Part shown: in pieces, positions 9,221 through 31,471 of the stretch
Position numbering within the stretch: position 1 is the first letter of the stretch
Layout: every line of letters starts with the position of its first letter
Origin: an uncultured Leucothrix sp.
GTDB lineage: Bacteria > Pseudomonadota > Gammaproteobacteria > Thiotrichales > Thiotrichaceae
Length of the DNA stretch: 32,365 nucleotides
Direction: 5' to 3'
Assembly: GCA_937923375.1 (NCBI GenBank)
Contig: CALAJG010000278.1
Span: 1 to 32,365 of the forward strand
Made by a program: the position numbers and the translations under genes
Notes under the pieces: generated by a model
Told to the model about the DNA's origin: nothing
The model's database searches: none
What the model saw: the letters and a program-made list of their open reading frames with translations, nothing else

Positions 9221-10582
9221 CTACTTCTTAATCGCGCCCAAACTCTGCTTAAAGGCATTTTTTGTTTCGGCTCTGGTTTTAGCTAAAGCATCTTCCTTAA
9301 CCTGCATCGTTGATTTATTTGATGAATCATATAAAACCACAACGTCCGAAGCATTACCTTTAGCCTGAGGAGAATCCTTATCAAGGTAATCCGGAATACC
9401 ATCCTTATCTGAGTCTTTAGTGCCACCTTCTGTACGCGTTAGTAGGTTATCCCCATCATCATTGGCATCTTGATAGTTAGGAACTCCGTCGTTATCCGTA
9501 TCATCATTCCTAGCCGTACCGTTTTTATCAATATCCTCTAACTTGGTTAATATACCATCGTTATCGTCATCTTTATCTAAGGCATCGATGATGCCATCCC
9601 GGTCACTATCTAATGGCCTCCTCAAATTAGGGCCAATTTCAACAGGGTCTGTAACTCCATCCCCATCGCTATCCTGATTCTTTGGGTTCAGCCCAAGCGA
9701 TAATTCCAGACTATTAGGCAATCCATCCTTATCGGTATCCTGGGTTACCTTTACATTACTGACTACTGGCTTTTTCGCTTGTATTTTTGCAAGTGTTTTG
9801 GGCTTACTCTGTGCGGTCGCGGTAGCTTGTTTCTTTACTACAGCCTTATTTACTACCGAAGTGGGGGTAGAAGATGTTGTTCGAGTCGATTTATGCGCGC
9901 CACTGATTTTTTGATTTAACCTTTTAGGCTGGGTGATTTTTGAACGAACAGAACCAGCTTTATTTTTTCTTATCTGCCCATTATCAGGCTGACTCTTGTG
10001 ATGAGCCTGGGAAACAAGCACTGGCTTTCGTTTAATATTGCTGCTGGCCACTCTGCTGTTTTTTTTCTGAAGTGATCTCTTTTTAGCATTGATTACGCGT
10101 TTAACCGATCTATCCAGAAACGAGACTACCTGATGATCCAGATAGAGGTTTTTTACATCTTCAGTGACATCTAGGCCGCTTAAGCTCAAACCAATTTCAT
10201 CACGATCCGAAATCCCGTCGTTGTCAGAATCCCAATCTAAGTAGTTTGCGACTCCATCGCCGTCAGTATCTTCACTGCCCTCAAGGAAATTTGGGATTCC
10301 GTCTCCATCGTCATCAGCATTTGGTAGAACAATTTTCTTGGACGGTGTCTGGAGTAGCCGTTTTAATTTCTTTTGCATCGCTGGTGTAGACCAGCTGTTG
10401 TCAGGGAGATGCAAGGAGCTTGGCAGCTTCAGATTAGTATCACCAAAAACCGGAATAACATAGAAACCAAACATGAATAACACGACACTTGCCACACCAA
10501 CACTGACTGCATGAGCAATGAAACTAACCAAGTTTTTAATCAATAAATAAAATCGCTGTGTACCAACAAAGGACTGCTTCAT
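9221..10582 (-). CDS. membrane-anchored thrombospondin type 3 repeat-containing protein
   Basis: Many DxDxDG repeats (DADDDGDGIPN, DTDGDGVANYLDWDSDNDGISDRDE, DSDGDGVTDP, DTDNDGVPNYQDANDDGD, DSDKDGIPDYLDKDS), N-terminal TM helix, Lys/Gln/Thr-rich linker. Start trimmed to MKQSFVGTQ (CAGGG RBS) at 10582. Confidence 0.8.
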   Translation of the reverse strand: MKQSFVGTQRFYLLIKNLVSFIAHAVSVGVASVVLFMFGFYVIPVFGDTNLKLPSSLHLPDNSWSTPAMQKKLKRLLQTPSKKIVLPNADDDGDGIPNFLEGSEDTDGDGVANYLDWDSDNDGISDRDEIGLSLSGLDVTEDVKNLYLDHQVVSFLDRSVKRVINAKKRSLQKKNSRVASSNIKRKPVLVSQAHHKSQPDNGQIRKNKAGSVRSKITQPKRLNQKISGAHKSTRTTSSTPTSVVNKAVVKKQATATAQSKPKTLAKIQAKKPVVSNVKVTQDTDKDGLPNSLELSLGLNPKNQDSDGDGVTDPVEIGPNLRRPLDSDRDGIIDALDKDDDNDGILTKLEDIDKNGTARNDDTDNDGVPNYQDANDDGDNLLTRTEGGTKDSDKDGIPDYLDKDSPQAKGNASDVVVLYDSSNKSTMQVKEDALAKTRAETKNAFKQSLGAIKK

Positions 10583-10714
10583 AGTTAACCCTGATTTGCA
10601 GTAAGCCTGGAGACTCTTCTGCTTGTTTTTATTATTGTGCAATAATATCACACTTTAGGATGGCCGAATCAAGCAAAATTAACATTTATCTATCAAAAGC
10701 CTGATTCAAGGGCT

Positions 10715-13588: not shown

Positions 13589-15754
13589 TTAATTCATGAT
13601 TTTAGGCGTCACGAAGATTAACAACTCCCGCTTATTGGTACTTTTAACATTTTTCTGAAAAAGCTTCCCAAGATAAGGAAGATCACTAAGCACAGGCACC
13701 TTGGTCGTATCACTATTGTTAGTTTCCTCATGAACTCCACCAAGAACAACAGTCTGGCCATTGTCTACTAAAACCTGTGTATTTATCTCACGAGTATTGA
13801 TACTGGGTACGCCCGAGTAAACCGAGCCAACCGTATCCTGATTAACTTTCAGATCCATAATTACATGCTCATCCGGCGTTACTTGTGGCGTAACTTCCAG
13901 ACTAAGTACCGCCTTCTTAAAGGAAACACTGGTCGCACCGCTAGAACTTGCCTGCAAATATGGAACTTCGACACCTTGCTCAATTAATGCCTTCTTTTTG
14001 TCTGCCGTGACCACCCGAGGAGAAGAAACAATATCCCCTTTACTTTCTGCCTGTAAAGCAGACAATTCGAGATCTAATAAGTAGTCTTTAGCGAGCAAGG
14101 AGAAGCCGAGAGACCCCGCTGCACCAACGACAGGAAGGTTTACATTTAATCTGTCGCCTAAGCCAGGCACACCAACTTCAGATCCACTTGCCAATGAGCT
14201 CGCAATGCCGCCCGTGGCTCCTAACGAACCCGAAGTAATTCCACCACTGCTACCTATTTTTGTAACGCCGAAACGAGCACCTAGCTCTTTTCCAAAGGTG
14301 TCACTTGCAATAACAATTCTTGCTTCAACAGAAACCTGACGAACCGGCACATCGAGACTTTTAATCATGTTACGAACTTCATCTACCCTTGAAACCGTAT
14401 CATGGACCAACAATGTATTGGTTCGCTTATCGACTGAAACACTCCCACGATCAGACAGCATAGATCCACCACCATTACGCTGACCATTGCTTCCCTGCGA
14501 CTGAATCAATGACAGCATCTCCTCTGCTTTAGCAAAGTTCACAGCAATATATTCAGTAACTAATGGCTCCAGTGCTTTTTTACGTTGCAGTGCTTGTAGC
14601 TCCTGCTGCTCTTTAGCCTGTAACTCCAGAGCCGGTGCAACCCAGATAACGTTTCCATTACTTCGCATTGCTAATGCTTTGGACTCAAGCACGATATCCA
14701 GTGCCTGATCCCAAGGCACTGACTTTAGACGCAATGTAATATTTCCTTTCACGCTATCACTAACGACAATATTCTTATCGGTGAAGTCTGCCAACAGCTG
14801 AAGTACCGAACGCACCTCAATATCCTGGAAGTTTAGTGATAAAGGCTTGCCTTTGTAATGTTTCTGCTTAGGCTTTAGAGGGTCTGTCGGTTTAACCTTG
14901 CGTTTTACCCGCTTCACAGCGACTTTATATTGATTACCCTCACGACTAACTGAGTGCTCAAACGCAGTATTTGCAATAAGTTTAACCAGAACATCCGCTC
15001 CCTTTCTTTCAATGTCTACGTAAGACAAAGGCGTCGCAAAGTCGAGTACATTAAGGCGTTTCTTTGGTTCCTTTGAAGAAGCATCTTTAATGGTCAAGGT
15101 GACCATGTTTCCATGTTTGAACTCTGTTACTTTTGTTGCAGGATGCGGCAGACGAATGATCGCCAGGCCATTGCCATCACCATCTCTGCGAAAATCAATT
15201 GGTGCCAGTTCTCTTACACGATGAGGCTGGGCACGAGCAGGTTTTCTTGCTGCCTGAGCAGCCGGACGTTTAATATAGTTACCTGCCTGCGCTTGGTGCG
15301 ACACGGCTCGTTGATTAACCGCCGGCCCTGCATTGTTAAGTCTTGCCGCTTGATTGTGCCCCGCAGCTGCACTGCTAAATGTAACGTAAACCTGCGAACC
15401 GTTTACTCGGGTTTGATGCTGAGCCTGTTGATTCATTGCAACCATAACCCGCAGCTTTCCATTACCTCTGGCAGTGCGAACACTTTTCACATAGGGTGAC
15501 TTGATTAATTTTTTTCTAACACCCAAACCAGACTCCGCATCATTAAAGTCCAGAACCACGAGGTTAGGTGACGTCATAACAAAACTACTGGGCGTACTCA
15601 CAGCAGAATCAAAGAAGAATCGCAGCTGCGTGTTCGTGTTACCCTGATTGACAGCATCAACTTTTTGTAAACGTGCAGTAGCAAAACTTTCGGCAGAGAA
15701 AAGCAGTCCAAGCGGTAATGCTATTGCTGTCATTAAACGGATTATAGTTTTCAT
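13589..15754 (-). CDS. pilQ: type IV pilus secretin PilQ
   Basis: AMIN-type N-terminus, secretin/TonB short N-terminal domain (KPLSLNFQDIEVRSVLQLLADFTDKNIVVSDSVKGNITLRLKSVPWDQALDIVL), C-terminal secretin domain; pilMNOPQ order. Confidence 0.97.
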   Translation of the reverse strand: MKTIIRLMTAIALPLGLLFSAESFATARLQKVDAVNQGNTNTQLRFFFDSAVSTPSSFVMTSPNLVVLDFNDAESGLGVRKKLIKSPYVKSVRTARGNGKLRVMVAMNQQAQHQTRVNGSQVYVTFSSAAAGHNQAARLNNAGPAVNQRAVSHQAQAGNYIKRPAAQAARKPARAQPHRVRELAPIDFRRDGDGNGLAIIRLPHPATKVTEFKHGNMVTLTIKDASSKEPKKRLNVLDFATPLSYVDIERKGADVLVKLIANTAFEHSVSREGNQYKVAVKRVKRKVKPTDPLKPKQKHYKGKPLSLNFQDIEVRSVLQLLADFTDKNIVVSDSVKGNITLRLKSVPWDQALDIVLESKALAMRSNGNVIWVAPALELQAKEQQELQALQRKKALEPLVTEYIAVNFAKAEEMLSLIQSQGSNGQRNGGGSMLSDRGSVSVDKRTNTLLVHDTVSRVDEVRNMIKSLDVPVRQVSVEARIVIASDTFGKELGARFGVTKIGSSGGITSGSLGATGGIASSLASGSEVGVPGLGDRLNVNLPVVGAAGSLGFSLLAKDYLLDLELSALQAESKGDIVSSPRVVTADKKKALIEQGVEVPYLQASSSGATSVSFKKAVLSLEVTPQVTPDEHVIMDLKVNQDTVGSVYSGVPSINTREINTQVLVDNGQTVVLGGVHEETNNSDTTKVPVLSDLPYLGKLFQKNVKSTNKRELLIFVTPKIMN

Positions 15755-15820
15755 GTTCGGACCTATTATTTTTATTACTATTTAGTCACTTTAATATTGT
15801 GTTGCTCAGGCTAAACCACT

Positions 15821-16366
15821 TTACTGATCAAGAAGAAGTCGATTAGCTTGTTCTTTAAAACCACCCAGTCCATTCGAGACAGTTTCCATAAGACCTAACT
15901 CAGCCTCAGTAACAGAGACGATCTTGCCGTAGTTCTGCCCTAGATAGTTTCCTGCTTTTACACTCTGGATGCCACCATCTGGAATTTTGATCAGCGCCCA
16001 AAGGTTCTTGTCCTTACTAACCGTTCCAACCATTTTCAAGCTGTCGAGTGGAAACCCCTCGAGAAACTCTTTGACTCGTGTTGTATCGACTTGAATACCT
16101 GAATCCATGATCGGCACTTCGTTTGGAGCAAGCATCGACACATCAAATGGGTCTTTCTCATTGCCGGGGTACACGTACCTTAGATAAGGTTTTATTTCAG
16201 GTATCGGATCAATCGCCCTAGCTTGCTTCGCCCGATGCTCTTCAAAATACACATCCAAGTCCGACGTATCCTTAATGCAGCCTGTTAACCCGACAAGCAG
16301 TGCTGAGTACAGCGTGCTTCTGAATAAACGTGAAGCTAAACCAGTGGAAATATTAGTGTAATTCAT
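15821..16366 (-). CDS. pilP: type IV pilus lipoprotein PilP
   Basis: Lipobox (LLVGLTGC), DPFD and LKMVGT..ALIKIPDGGIQSVKAGNYLGQNYGKI motif; operon position. Confidence 0.95.
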   Translation of the reverse strand: MNYTNISTGLASRLFRSTLYSALLVGLTGCIKDTSDLDVYFEEHRAKQARAIDPIPEIKPYLRYVYPGNEKDPFDVSMLAPNEVPIMDSGIQVDTTRVKEFLEGFPLDSLKMVGTVSKDKNLWALIKIPDGGIQSVKAGNYLGQNYGKIVSVTEAELGLMETVSNGLGGFKEQANRLLLDQ

Positions 16367-16995
16367 TAGCTGCCACCTTCTTCATTTTCATCAAGATAAC
16401 GATAGGTTCTGATCATGGCTTCCATGGTAAGCCTAAACGGAACCTTGCCTTTTTTCTTTTTATCTTGGTCTACTTTCTCAGGAGCCAAACGGATATCAGA
16501 AATTGTTACAATTCTGGGTAAGCCAGAAATGTCACTTACAAATGCCGCCAGTTGATTATACGTTCCATTTGCTTTCAACATAATTGGCTTTTCAGCGTAG
16601 AACTCTTTTTGCTGCTCTGGCTTGGGTTGAAATAACTCGATTTCTAATCCGTTGGATAAGCCTTTTTCAGAAATATCCAATATCAATCCAGGAATCTCTG
16701 TACCACTGGGCAACTGCTTCATCAAAGAACCAAATGAAAGCTGCATTTCTTTTAGTTGAGCCCTATAAGCAGGTAGCTGATTTGCTCTGGCCTGCTTAGT
16801 TTCAAAAGTCTGACGTAATGTCGACTCCTTAGATACACGACCATCCAGTTCCGACATTTTATCGACAATTATTAGCTTGTATCCCATAAACAGAACTAAA
16901 CCACAGATTGCCAAGATGGCCAGCACTTTGACAGGCATCGAAACATTAGCCGGATCGTCAATTAGACTATTGAGTTCCTGTAAATCAATTGCCAT
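16366..16995 (-). CDS. pilO: type IV pilus inner-membrane protein PilO
   Basis: Single TM then coiled-coil, PSGTEIPGLILDISEKGLSNGLEIELFQP; start trimmed to MAIDLQELN with GAGGAGA RBS. Confidence 0.95.
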   Translation of the reverse strand: MAIDLQELNSLIDDPANVSMPVKVLAILAICGLVLFMGYKLIIVDKMSELDGRVSKESTLRQTFETKQARANQLPAYRAQLKEMQLSFGSLMKQLPSGTEIPGLILDISEKGLSNGLEIELFQPKPEQQKEFYAEKPIMLKANGTYNQLAAFVSDISGLPRIVTISDIRLAPEKVDQDKKKKGKVPFRLTMEAMIRTYRYLDENEEGGS

Positions 16996-17563
16996 TGTCA
17001 TTCTCCTCGTCACCACCTGACTTGAGTAATTGTGTAACACTCAAACTAAAGTTTCTCAGCCTATCCGTTTTTTTGCGTGTATCAATCGAGATGATATTTA
17101 GTGCAGAAGAACTGAGCCACGGAGACATATCCAGGCGATTCATGTAACTAGAAACCCGCGCATTCGACTCAGCTTTACCTTCAAGCTTAATCTTGCCTTC
17201 TTTTTGTTCAAGATTGGTGAGATACATCCCCTTAGGCATAGATTTAACCATTTCATCAAACAAATGCACGATTCCGGGACGCGTCGATTGTAATCCTTCA
17301 ATTATCGTAATCCGATCAAGTAGAGCTTTACGCGTTACATCAAGCTTTTTAATTTCAGCGATCGTCTTATCTAAATCTTTAATTTCAGACTCTAGATAAC
17401 TGTTGCGTGTATTCTGTCTATCAATCTGATTCTGATAAAAGCTGTAAGCACCAAAAACCCCAGTCGCCGCAACGGCAATGGAGCTGACCACCATAATTAC
17501 AAACTTTTTCTGGCTCTCTTTGCGCGCTTCATCACGCCAAGGCAGTAAATTTAATCCGGCCAT
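16985..17563 (-). CDS. pilN: type IV pilus inner-membrane protein PilN
   Basis: MAGLNLLPWRDEARKESQKKF... signature; operon position. Confidence 0.96.
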   Translation of the reverse strand: MAGLNLLPWRDEARKESQKKFVIMVVSSIAVAATGVFGAYSFYQNQIDRQNTRNSYLESEIKDLDKTIAEIKKLDVTRKALLDRITIIEGLQSTRPGIVHLFDEMVKSMPKGMYLTNLEQKEGKIKLEGKAESNARVSSYMNRLDMSPWLSSSALNIISIDTRKKTDRLRNFSLSVTQLLKSGGDEENDNGN

Positions 17564-18612
17564 TACAAAATCCCCCTAAGCGCCAAACCTGTTGATACCA
17601 GCATTGCAGGGATATCACTTGTAAAACGGGCGGGATTAACACGCGAATTTAGCACCACATTCGAAAATGGGTTGGCTAGCGTGGTCGCAACACCCGTTGC
17701 ATCCTGAATTTGCTCATCAATCCCGGGGATGCTGGCACAACCACCTGATAGGAGAATTTTATCGACATTACCTTGCTGAGTTGAGGCGTGGTAAAACTGG
17801 AGGAACCGCTGTACTTGCCTAACCATGTTTTCTCTAAAAGGATCGAGAACCTCAGGAATATACCCTTCAGGAAGATTACCATTCTTCTTGGCTAAACCTG
17901 CCTCTGAATAGGGCAAACCATAGCGCTGCATAATTTCTTCAGTCAGCTGCTTACCACCAAAAGCTTGTTCACGAGAGAAGACTACCCGCCCGTTTTCAAA
18001 AACGTTAACGCCTGTCATGGACGATCCAAAATCAACCAGGGCAACCGTATCATGCTTAACCACATCGTCTACTAAGGTAGTGAATAGCAATTCGATGGCA
18101 TGTGATTCCAGATCAACAACATCGACCGTCAAACCGGCCATTTCCGCAGCAGCTAATCTAATTTCGACATTTTCAGTCCGTGTAGCAGCAAGCAAAACAT
18201 CGACCATTTCAGGCGATTGCTCTGATGGGCCCAGAACTTCAAAGTCAAAGTTAACCTCTTCCATAGGGTAGGGAATATATTGCTCTGCCTCAAGGGTAAC
18301 CTGAGCTTCCATTTCGGATGCGGGTATAGAGGCTGGCATAGCTATCACTTTATTGATCGCCATTGATGATGGGATACCCAGTGCGCATCGACGGGTTTTA
18401 GTACGGCTTTGTTTAAGCACTCGCTTTATGGCTTCGCCAACAGGGTCTGCTTCGACAATATCCCGTTCGTAAGCCGCGCCCTCAGGCAGTGAAGCAACAC
18501 CATAGCTATCTACCCGGTATGAGCCACCTTTCTGGGAAAGCTCAATGAGCTTTACAGCCGAGGAACTGATATCAATCCCAAGAAGCCCACTTTTTTTATT
18601 AAAAGAAAACAC
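17563..18612 (-). CDS. pilM: type IV pilus assembly ATPase-like PilM
   Basis: Actin-like: LLGIDISSSAVKLIELS, ALVDFGSSMTGVNVFENGRVVFSREQAFGG, ILLSGGCASIPG. Confidence 0.97.
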   Translation of the reverse strand: MFSFNKKSGLLGIDISSSAVKLIELSQKGGSYRVDSYGVASLPEGAAYERDIVEADPVGEAIKRVLKQSRTKTRRCALGIPSSMAINKVIAMPASIPASEMEAQVTLEAEQYIPYPMEEVNFDFEVLGPSEQSPEMVDVLLAATRTENVEIRLAAAEMAGLTVDVVDLESHAIELLFTTLVDDVVKHDTVALVDFGSSMTGVNVFENGRVVFSREQAFGGKQLTEEIMQRYGLPYSEAGLAKKNGNLPEGYIPEVLDPFRENMVRQVQRFLQFYHASTQQGNVDKILLSGGCASIPGIDEQIQDATGVATTLANPFSNVVLNSRVNPARFTSDIPAMLVSTGLALRGIL

Positions 18613-18802: not shown

Positions 18803-21667
18803 ATGTTATATATTAAAAAAAAATCTAAAGCGCCGCTAATACAGACGCACAAAACTAAGAAAAAGAAAGGAATATTTTCAAGGTTTTTTTTGTTCTTTTT
18901 TAAGAGCATTTTTGCACCAGCAGTCATGTTATTTGCATTGGGTACTACCTTATTTACAGCATTATATTTCTATTATGAACCCAATTTACCAAGAGTTGCG
19001 CAACTCCGGGGAACGCAGCTCCAGCTACCTATCCAGGTTTATAGCAAGGAAAACCAACTGATCGCTGAATTTGGCCAATTCCGCAGACGACCAGTGACTT
19101 ATGACGAAGTACCGAAGGATATGATCCATGCATTTATCGCCATTGAAGATGCAAGGTATTGGGAACACTATGGTGTTGATTTTAAAGGCGTCATCCGTGC
19201 TGTCGTTTCTGCAGTAAAAAGTCGCTCTGTTTCACAGGGTGCAAGTACTATCACTATGCAACTGGCAAGAAACCTGTTCTTGACCTCTGAGCGAACAGCT
19301 GACCGTAAGCTTAGAGAGATGTTCTTAGCATTCAAAATTGAAAAAGAGTTCACAAAAGACGAAATCCTTGAGCTATATCTCAATAAAATTTTCCTCGGAA
19401 ACAGAGCTTATGGGGTTGGTTCGGCCGCTGAGATTTACTACGCAAAAAAACTAAAAGGCCTCACATTAGCCCAAATGGCAATGATAGCTGGCCTGCCTAA
19501 AGCACCATCTCGTTATAACCCAATCAGGCAACCTAAGCGCGCTAAAATTCGTCGCGATTACATTTTACAGCGAATGTATGAACTGGAGTACATTGATAAA
19601 GCGCAGTACGAGCAAGCTATTGCGGAGAATGTATCTGCAAAAGTGTATCAGGTGGAATCTCAAACCTACGCGCCATATATGGCAGAGATGGCCCGAGCCG
19701 ATGCATTAGAACGTTATGGCGTCGAAAATATGTATACGCTCGGCCTCAAGATATACACCACGTTGGATAGCCGCCAGCAAGAACTAGCACTGCAAACAGT
19801 CCGTAAACACCTGATTAGCTACAGCAAGCGCCATGGCTATCGTGGCCCGTTAGAGCAACTAAATCTTAACGAATTTGCCGATGAAGCTAGTCGGAGTAAA
19901 AAGCTTGAAACCTACAATAATTATCAAGCGCTGATGCCAGCCATTGTACTAGAAAGCGATAATGACACCGCTAAATTACAGCGACGTGGCAGTATGACTC
20001 CCATTACCTTAGGTTTAAAAGAAGTAAAATGGGCACGGCGCTATCGCGATGAAAACCGCCAAGGCCCCAAAATTAAACGGGTTAGAGACGTACTCTCACC
20101 GGGAGATGTCGTTTGGGTTAGCAGAAATGAGGAGCGTATTTGGGAGCTCAGCCAGCTACCAAAAGTGACCGGAGCGCTAACGGTTGTCAATCCTAAAGAC
20201 GGCGCGATAGAAGCTATGGTAGGAGGGTTTGATTTTACTTACAGTAAGTTTAACCGAGCACTGCAAGCAAAACGCCAACCAGGATCCAGTTTTAAGCCTT
20301 TCGTCTACAGCGCAGCGTTAGCGACCGGGGACTACTCACCCGGCAGTGTGCTCAAAGATGAGGAAATTGTCATCCCGGGCAGTACTTGGTCACCACAAAA
20401 CTTTGATGAAAAGTTTCATGGCCCTACTTTGCTCCGTCACGCACTAAAAAAATCACGCAATATTGTTTCTATAAAACTATTACAGGAAATTGGCATAGAG
20501 CATGCGACTAACTATGCACGCCGTTTTGGATTTACTGATGCGGCCATACCTCAGGATCTAACATTATCGCTGGGCACTGGTTCGGTCACACCACTTGAAA
20601 TCGCAACAGCCTACGCCAGTTTCGCTAATGGTGGATTCAAGGTTAACAATTATTTTATTCGCAAGATTGTCGACAAGGATAATCGTGTTTTATTTCGAAA
20701 TAAACCAGATACAGCGTGCTCACAGTGCCCAAAACCTAAGCTGACAGAACTTGAAGCACCAAATATGCCGAGCACCATTAATGGCAACCCGGTTGCCAAA
20801 CGCATTATTGAGCCTTACGTACATTACCAAATCACTAGTATGCTAAGAGATGTCGCCCGCTCTGGCACCGCAGCAAAGGCCAGCAGGGTACTAAAGCGCA
20901 ATGATCTGGCTGGTAAGACCGGAACGACAAATGACCAAAGAGACTCTTGGTTTGCTGGCTTCACACCACGGAAAGTTACCACAGTATGGATGGGATTTGA
21001 CGATCTGGCTCCATTGGGAAAAGGTGAAACATCAACCAAAGCGGCCCTCCCCCTTTGGATTGACTTTATGCAATCTGCTCTTAAAGGCAGCTCGGAGGCC
21101 AAATGGCAGAAGCCCCCAAGAGGAATGGTCGATATAACTATCGACGTAAGAAATGGCTTTCCTCCTAGTGAATTGACTGTAGCAACTGTGACTGAAAAGG
21201 TAATTGATACACAGATTCCAACAGAAGAGGAATTCCTTGCCTATAAGGAATTGCATCCGGATGAGTTTCTTTACACTGTTGAAGACAAGGCGCAGGAACG
21301 GCAAAATCTTCGCCTAAGGGCTGAATACCAGCAAAAGCTAAATAACTATAATCGTAGAGTAGCCGCGCGCCAAAAGGAGTTAGCACGTCTTAAATCTATC
21401 GGTAGCAGTTATGTGCCACCACAGCTTGCCCCTCCGCCGGAAGTACCGGTGGCACTGGCGAAGCTGATGGAGAGAGATAGGCTCAGAGCTATTCATCAAG
21501 CACGTCTAAATGGTGAAGAGGTTCCTGGGGCTGCTTCTGCTACTCAATCGCAGGGTGCAGTAGCTTCCCAGAGGCCGGCAGCTTCAAGTCAACAGCAAGA
21601 ACTTAGTGAAGATCAACAACTGCTTGAAATGATTCGTTTACTAAATCTGGAGACTAGTACTAATTAG
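18803..21667 (+). CDS. mrcA: penicillin-binding protein 1A (transglycosylase/transpeptidase)
   Basis: GT51 motif [15 protein letters not shown]; transpeptidase [16 protein letters not shown] and [16 protein letters not shown]; divergent from pilM as in many gammaproteobacteria. Confidence 0.96.
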
Positions 21668-29819: not shown

Positions 29820-30857
29820 TTAAAAAAATGACTTCAGTTGTGCGAAATACTTTGAAAACAAATTTTCATCAGACCTGCTACCGGCGCTCTCACTATCCAT
29901 AATAGTCTGGTATAAGGCCTGAACAACACGCGACATCTTTTGATAGTCCAGAGAAATTGCCTTATTAGAGGCTTGATTTTCTGGCACTCGATATTCTAAG
30001 AGGTCACTCACCTGTAATGCGGTAAAGTCGTGCAACCAATAATTTTCATGATCGGAGCCACCAACCAACGGGAAATTTTCTGGCGCACTTAAGGACTCAA
30101 CTGCCAGATCCGGGATTCGACTAAAACTGTGCTTAACAGATCGAATTGCCCCAAAGTCATCTAATCGGCTCGACAAGCCAATAAAATCAGCGGTATCAGG
30201 ATATAGCATTTTCATGAAGGAAAATGGATAACGCTGAGAGTTTGTTGCCCTTCGATAGTATCCAACGCTGCGCAACGCCAACATCAGTTGAATATCAATT
30301 TTTTTATCTTTAAGTGCCTTAGCATGGTGAAAGCTCCCCATATCCAGCGTTCCATTTGCCACCATACCTGCAGTCGCATAAGCAACCAACTCTACTGCGA
30401 CTGGGAGCTTATCTTTATTTGCCCCTAGCACCCTGGCCGCTTCTAATAAAGCAGCCACCCCACTATAATTCCAGTGTTGCTGAGCAATCCCTTTTGGTGA
30501 AGAGTATTGAACGCCAATGACGATTCGCTGGTTTGTATTTGGCCCCATTAACAGACTGACATTATTATAGCGGCCACTCATACCCACAAAGCCTTGTTTA
30601 GTAGGTTTTCCAATGCGTTTTAGATAAGCGTAAATATAACTATCAGTGCTTAATGACTCTTTCATCAATTGCTGTGAAGTCGCAATTTTCTGAAGATTGA
30701 TGACATGGTTTTTTAAGTTTGCAGCATTGACCTCGGGAAGGTCATCGGAGGTAGGCATTGGCAGAATCGGCTGTGTGATAAAGAACCACAACAGCGCGCA
30801 TACTATAAATATAGCAATTAACCAATCAATAAGTCTTGCAACCAATCTGCTGAACAT
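29820..30857 (-). CDS. membrane-anchored M28-peptidase-like protein, probably catalytically inactive
   Basis: N-terminal TM; M28-like layout (RIVIGVQYSS...YSGVAALLEAARVL...VAYATAGMVANGT...LMLALRSVGYYR...SDHENYWLHDFTALQVSD), but most metal-ligand positions differ from the family consensus. Confidence 0.65.
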   Translation of the reverse strand: MFSRLVARLIDWLIAIFIVCALLWFFITQPILPMPTSDDLPEVNAANLKNHVINLQKIATSQQLMKESLSTDSYIYAYLKRIGKPTKQGFVGMSGRYNNVSLLMGPNTNQRIVIGVQYSSPKGIAQQHWNYSGVAALLEAARVLGANKDKLPVAVELVAYATAGMVANGTLDMGSFHHAKALKDKKIDIQLMLALRSVGYYRRATNSQRYPFSFMKMLYPDTADFIGLSSRLDDFGAIRSVKHSFSRIPDLAVESLSAPENFPLVGGSDHENYWLHDFTALQVSDLLEYRVPENQASNKAISLDYQKMSRVVQALYQTIMDSESAGSRSDENLFSKYFAQLKSFF

Positions 30858-30988: not shown

Positions 30989-31016
30989 CAAAAAAGCCGG
31001 CTTAAGCCGGCCTTTA
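30989..31016 (-). terminator. Rho-independent terminator of rpsT
   Basis: Minus strand: AAAGGCCGGCTTAAGCCGGCTTTTTT. Confidence 0.85.
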
Positions 31017-31033: not shown

Positions 31034-31294
31034 TTAAAGCGCGCGAATACGAGAATTCAAGCGGCTCTTATGTCTAGCTGCCTTATTCTTGTGAATGAGT
31101 CCTTTTGACACACCTGAATCAATTGAAGGTACTGCAGCAGTATATGCTTCAGAGGCAGCCGCTTTGTCACCAGCTTCTATGGCCGTCACTACGCGCTTGA
31201 TCTGAGTACGCATGGTTGTTGTATAGTGCTTCTTGTGAACACGACGCTCTTCTGACAAGCGCACACGTTTTTTTGCTGATTTGATATTAGGCAA
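31034..31294 (-). CDS. rpsT: 30S ribosomal protein S20 (TTG start)
   Basis: (M)PNIKSAKKRVRLSEERRVHKKHYTTTMRTQIKRV...; GGGAGAG-TAAA-TTG; the listed ORF start at 31318 is upstream of the likely start. Confidence 0.95.
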   Translation of the reverse strand: MPNIKSAKKRVRLSEERRVHKKHYTTTMRTQIKRVVTAIEAGDKAAASEAYTAAVPSIDSGVSKGLIHKNKAARHKSRLNSRIRAL

Positions 31295-31471
31295 TTTACT
31301 CTCCCGTTCGGGCGTCAAAATTAAGACGCGTATTGTGCCGCATCTTACCCCCTCTGGGCAAGATCAATTTAAAACTTTTTCCAAAAAATCCAACCTAAAT
31401 TCAAATATCTTTTCAGCTTAAGTTGGTAGGTAATTTCTAACACACGATACTCGTTACTCAAACTGAAAATT

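Follow-up and report, generated by a model that had tools for sequence, protein, structure and literature searches.

The window, by which we mean the whole 32,365-nt stretch of DNA that was analyzed, encodes a membrane-anchored protein that is descended from the M28 zinc aminopeptidases, is without any of their metal-binding and catalytic residues and is maintained by purifying selection. We consider it probable, on balance, that this protein serves a non-catalytic role, most likely as a scaffold or binding subunit. The 345-aa open reading frame, its coordinates, its N-terminal membrane helix and the peptide segments quoted in a preliminary description of this DNA were all present in the sequence, and the features discussed below are listed in Table 1. 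Where labels are needed, g1 to g8 denote genera (g1 is the genus of the window), L-numbers denote loci and G-numbers denote genomes.

Table 1. Features of the pseudo-peptidase gene and its upstream neighborhood, in window coordinates
Feature	Position	Strand	Remarks
M28-type pseudo-peptidase gene, membrane-anchored, 345 aa	29820..30857	-	ATG start; stop included; every sampled genome of the genus has an open-frame orthologue
N-terminal signal anchor / transmembrane helix, residues 1-29	30771..30857	-	Hydropathy, model helix; contains D11-W12
Ex-ligand segment Q117-Y-S119	30501..30509	-	Replaces H97-x-D99 of Aeromonas aminopeptidase
Ex-bridging-ligand segment W129-N-Y-S-G133	30459..30473	-	W129 replaces Asp117
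A163-G164	30366..30371	-	Replace catalytic Glu151 and ligand Glu152
R196	30270..30272	-	Replaces ligand Asp179 (most intact relatives have Glu)
R231-L-D-D234 motif	30156..30167	-	Present in the two pseudo-M28 clades; lacking in intact paralogs of the family
SDHENYW segment, residues 268-274	30036..30056	-	Conserved; not a zinc-ligand segment
Segment 285-305, DLLEYRVPENQASNKAISLDY	29943..30005	-	Intact enzymes: DTxxxRNxxYHTxxDTxxxLDY; last zinc-ligand His absent
rpsT (ribosomal protein S20)	31034..31318	-	Named from sequence; conserved upstream neighbor, same strand
rpsT intrinsic terminator, GCCGGCTTAAGCCGGC-TTTTTT	30990..31011	-	Palindrome located; minus-strand read; between rpsT and the pseudo-M28 gene

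The hydropathy of the protein peaks at 2.69 over the 19 residues starting at residue 9. Two arginines (R4 and R8) precede this helix and an acidic stretch follows it, which would place the domain in the periplasm according to the positive-inside rule; the predicted topology is N-in, C-out. Residue counts indicate that D11-W12, within the anchor, is conserved across the clade of pseudo-peptidases described below. An AlphaFold model built from three sequences reached a mean pLDDT of 35.7, with helix 2-28 as its sole confident part. The gene occurs once in its own genome assembly, whose completeness is about 65%.

The relationship to M28 is weak when the window sequence is used alone: it matched the Pfam M28 family below the cut-off (E = 0.054), and among solved chains it gave only a weak M28 match (2ek8; E = 0.61). 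With profiles, homology to M28 becomes certain. A profile of six sequences of the genus retrieved solved M28 leucine aminopeptidases (5gne, E = 7e-5; 6esl, E = 1e-3), and a profile of the wider clade retrieved 2ek8 at 4.5e-14 and also matched nicalin. Profile-profile comparison against 16 intact M28 relatives that belong to other families in the class yielded a probability of 100 and an E-value of 2e-58 over 315 columns. By these alignments the domain is complete and M28-derived, in line with the M28 aminopeptidase layout proposed in the preliminary description.

We mapped the active site onto the numbering of the Aeromonas aminopeptidase (1amp) through the intact paralog L033 and the solved M28 chains, taking Glu151 of 1amp to be the catalytic base. 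The zinc ligands of this enzyme are His97, Asp117, Glu152, Asp179 and His256 (PMC7522609, Table 1). None of the five is kept in the window protein, in which the corresponding positions are Q117, W129, G164 and R196 and the last His is missing, and Glu151 is replaced by A163 (Ser, Gly or Ala across all members of the pseudo clade). The ligands of the single zinc of M28-like glutaminyl cyclases (Asp, Glu and His at sites 2, 3 and 5; PMC7522609) are not found either: W129 and G164 occupy two of these sites, and the third has no His. These replacements show, at the level of sequence, that the protein is unable to bind the catalytic zinc ions or to hydrolyse peptides by the M28 mechanism. The preliminary description had counted four of the five ligands as replaced and the His of SDHENYW as the one retained. 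The loss of the site holds, but this His is not a metal ligand, since in the alignment to solved M28 chains the SDH motif falls close to residue 230 of the Aeromonas protein and the published ligand is His256. The counterpart of His256 in the relatives lies in the YHTxxDT motif, where the window protein has no His, which brings the loss to five ligands out of five, in addition to the catalytic Glu.

The remainder of the domain has fared differently. Seven catalytic columns and 62 others are conserved in intact relatives; of these, the genus keeps none of the catalytic ones and 43 of the others (Fisher test, p = 6e-4). By this count the window's genus has retained the framework and erased the site, in agreement with what had been suggested from the single sequence.

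The main alternative to a scaffold or binding subunit is that the protein is a receptor for a peptide or another small ligand, the old cleft binding its ligand (e.g., the N-terminus of a peptide) uncut in order to sense or deliver it. The cleft framework is indeed kept (N130, S132, G133, G174-S175, G199 and D269-H270), with metal ligands turned into Q, W and G. The comparison of orthologues, which had been proposed as a check of the substitutions, gave a divided answer: Q117, W129 and G164 are each present in five of the six genus sequences, but as a group the six ex-catalytic columns do not exceed the domain average in conservation (0.53 vs. 0.59 across six genus members; 0.72 vs. 0.62 without L007). 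The old pocket itself may therefore not be the functional surface. The replacements at the site also vary between genera, and we regard the receptor as rather unlikely.

The gene was matched in 42 of the family's 63 genomes, among them all seven that belong to the window's genus. In a rooted tree, 29 rows from g1-g4 form one clade (support 100/100) whose nearest neighbors are intact paralogs from the same Thiotrichaceae-like family. Members of this clade have lost the site to different degrees. L019 (g3; L019:1501-2517) has all five ligands, with only the catalytic Glu replaced, by Ser, which makes it an apparent evolutionary intermediate and a candidate metal-binding but inactive protein. The other g3 members have also lost the bridging Asp, and L015 lacks the last His in addition. 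Members of g4 retain His97, Asp179 and usually Glu152. In g2, His97 and Asp179 remain, but the base, the bridging Asp and Glu152 are gone, as is the last His in most members. In g1, every ligand and the catalytic Glu are lost. Because the catalytic Glu is replaced in every member of the clade, its loss would be the earliest common step by parsimony.

All six catalytic positions are kept in the eight intact paralogs of the family and in 27 of the 28 class-wide relatives that were read (about 25 further class matches without a locus lie outside this count). The one exception, L063 (G131), which belongs to another family, carries Lys in place of the catalytic Glu and keeps all ligands, possibly an independent start of pseudo-enzyme evolution. 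L039 (G026:C153), which is linked to rpsT and sits on a long branch, lacks His97, the bridging Asp and both Glu residues, a loss that seems to have been independent of that in the window's genus. Its MAG contains another copy linked to rpsT, of which L039 is counted as the second, so contamination is possible. Viral contigs were also searched for relatives, and none were found.

An intact and a pseudo copy occur together in some genomes of other genera (e.g., G022, G025 and G009), as would be expected if the pseudo copy regulated an active M28 paralog as a dominant-negative or allosteric partner. In the near-complete genomes of the window's genus, however, a PF04389 search revealed no intact M28, and the pseudo copy is still kept. 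The hits of this search that we read look like M20-type peptidases or hydantoinases, and an active M28 paralog was rejected as a partner in the genus on these grounds. The absence of an intact M28 argues against a role in regulating an active paralog there, and we consider such a role improbable. We see a similarly slim chance that the protein is an enzyme with new chemistry, at the old site or at another. Pseudoenzymes occasionally gain new activities, and the ex-site residues have partly settled on new identities (Q117 and W129). Against this stands the lack of a new conserved acid/base or nucleophile cluster at the site, where Q, W, A, G and K/R make up most of the replacements.

The reading frames of the gene are open in all members of the genus. 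Most within-genus pairs are saturated in dS, so that dN/dS is not computable for them (window vs. L002: pN = 0.17 with pS saturated at 0.77), and the sole unsaturated pair, L002/L003, yields a dN/dS of 0.032 (dS = 0.077). In related genera, dN/dS ranges from 0.04 to 0.14 where dS can be estimated. These low ratios (0.03-0.14), together with the open frames, show retention by purifying selection and not decay. One copy in g2, L084 (G005:C24), lacks the domain core and then runs into an in-frame stop, which reflects either the loss of the gene in a single species or a fault in the assembly; a broken copy in G005 implies that the gene is dispensable in that lineage. A pseudogene in decay, caught before its disruption, would accord with this broken copy and is very improbable given the open frames throughout the genus and the low dN/dS across the clade. 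The main proposal of the preliminary description, an inactive membrane-anchored M28 protein kept by selection, is thus borne out by the profile homology, the full loss of the site, the open frames and the dN/dS values. The outcomes that it had named in advance as contrary to it (ligands at shifted positions, best hits to a non-M28 fold, relaxed selection or frameshifts) were not found in the genus, and the one broken copy belongs to another genus.

A homologous, very divergent form of about 310 aa was found in g6 and g7 (L041-L050; e.g., L049:3539-4468), and it aligned to intact M28 with a probability of 99.5 and an E-value of 4e-22. These proteins are missing the C-terminal ligand segment and the greater part of the site, and L049 had no match in Pfam or NCBIfam. 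In the copies whose surroundings were read, mraZ/rsmH-type genes lie nearby and, mostly, exosortase H does too. Exosortase H adjoins the divergent pseudo-M28 in g7; it was rejected as a functional partner, since it is missing from the window's genus, and in g8 it occurs with no pseudo-M28 present.

Four residues (D11, R231, D234 and F262) are common to both pseudo clades and absent or rare in intact enzymes, and a profile of the second clade scores many members of the first above intact paralogs. These shared residues and profile scores suggest that both pseudo clades are of one origin. The best tree also joins them, with a support of only 49/51 and with long branches involved, and three columns point against a single origin. 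We tentatively propose a broader reading, which is possible but which we would not call likely: a new bacterial family of anchored M28 pseudo-peptidases with a single origin in an ancestor common to several genera, a shared interface (D11 in the anchor; R231/D234 in the domain) and a role as a non-catalytic subunit of a membrane complex, like nicastrin and nicalin. If this reading is true, living intermediates record the order in which the active site was lost.

The neighborhood of the gene is conserved on one side only. Each of the seven genomes of the genus, and many of those of g2 and g4, have rpsT close by, upstream of the pseudo-M28 gene and on the same strand; intact M28 paralogs show no such adjacency. 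Since a terminator follows rpsT, the pseudo-M28 gene is probably under its own promoter, and the adjacency, with rpsT set apart in this way, speaks for orthology and not for shared function. On the other side, glmM is not a conserved neighbor, and a function tied to an rpsT-glmM operon was rejected because of this and of the terminator. We found neither a partner nor an operon nor a co-occurring gene for the pseudo-M28, which counts against the role that we favor. Elsewhere in the window, genes for a PilQ-type secretin and PilM, separated by small open reading frames and divergent from the gene for a bifunctional penicillin-binding protein (13589-18612 on the minus strand and 18803-21667 on the plus strand), form an ordinary type IV pilus assembly cluster. 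A protein of 476 aa (9221-10651, minus strand) matches the thrombospondin type 3 repeat and is possibly a surface protein.

The scaffold or binding role that we favor would take the following form. The protein would be a single-pass inner-membrane protein whose periplasmic domain descends from an M28 di-zinc aminopeptidase. It descends from a gene copy spread across the family in which, by parsimony, the catalytic Glu was lost first and the metal ligands later, until the loss became complete in the window's genus. The anchored M28-fold domain would most likely hold a partner, either a protein or a peptide, at the membrane's periplasmic face, and the anchor together with the derived residues R231/D234 would be the best candidates for the contact surface. 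The graded series from an intact paralog through L019 to the complete loss in the genus makes stepwise pseudoenzyme evolution directly testable. In addition, M28 annotations of these genes in the window's family would name an activity of which the proteins are incapable. In our searches of open-licence papers, we found no description of a bacterial, selected and fully metal-less M28 family.

The solved M28 metallo-aminopeptidases (5gne, 6esl, 2ek8 and the Aeromonas enzyme 1amp) share common ancestry and framework motifs with the window protein, for which the alpha/beta M28 fold is presumed. The solved enzymes are secreted, whereas the window protein has an N-terminal membrane anchor, no metal ligand and no catalytic Glu. 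Closer to it are the intact anchored M28 paralogs of the family and the class (L033, L038, L051 and others), many of which share a transmembrane helix ending in a WFxxTQP-like sequence, the domain and the C-terminal motifs. They differ in that all ligands and the EE pair are present and in their genomic position, and those of the family lack R231/D234. M28-type pseudoenzymes are best known in eukaryotes, as the membrane proteins nicastrin and nicalin. In these, a membrane-anchored M28-derived domain is part of a multi-protein membrane complex (PMC7505659). The window protein likewise combines an anchor with an M28-derived domain that has no zinc site and is extracytoplasmic in the predicted topology; the parallel is a proposed analogy of function. 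It is however bacterial, its anchor is N-terminal, and its evident kinship to nicastrin and nicalin is that of M28 homology. A bacterial parallel is offered by inactive LytM regulators such as DipM, which is described as a cell-envelope protein whose dead peptidase domain regulates other enzymes (PMC10336132). The resemblance there lies in a dead peptidase domain working in the bacterial envelope, although the peptidase fold is unrelated to M28.
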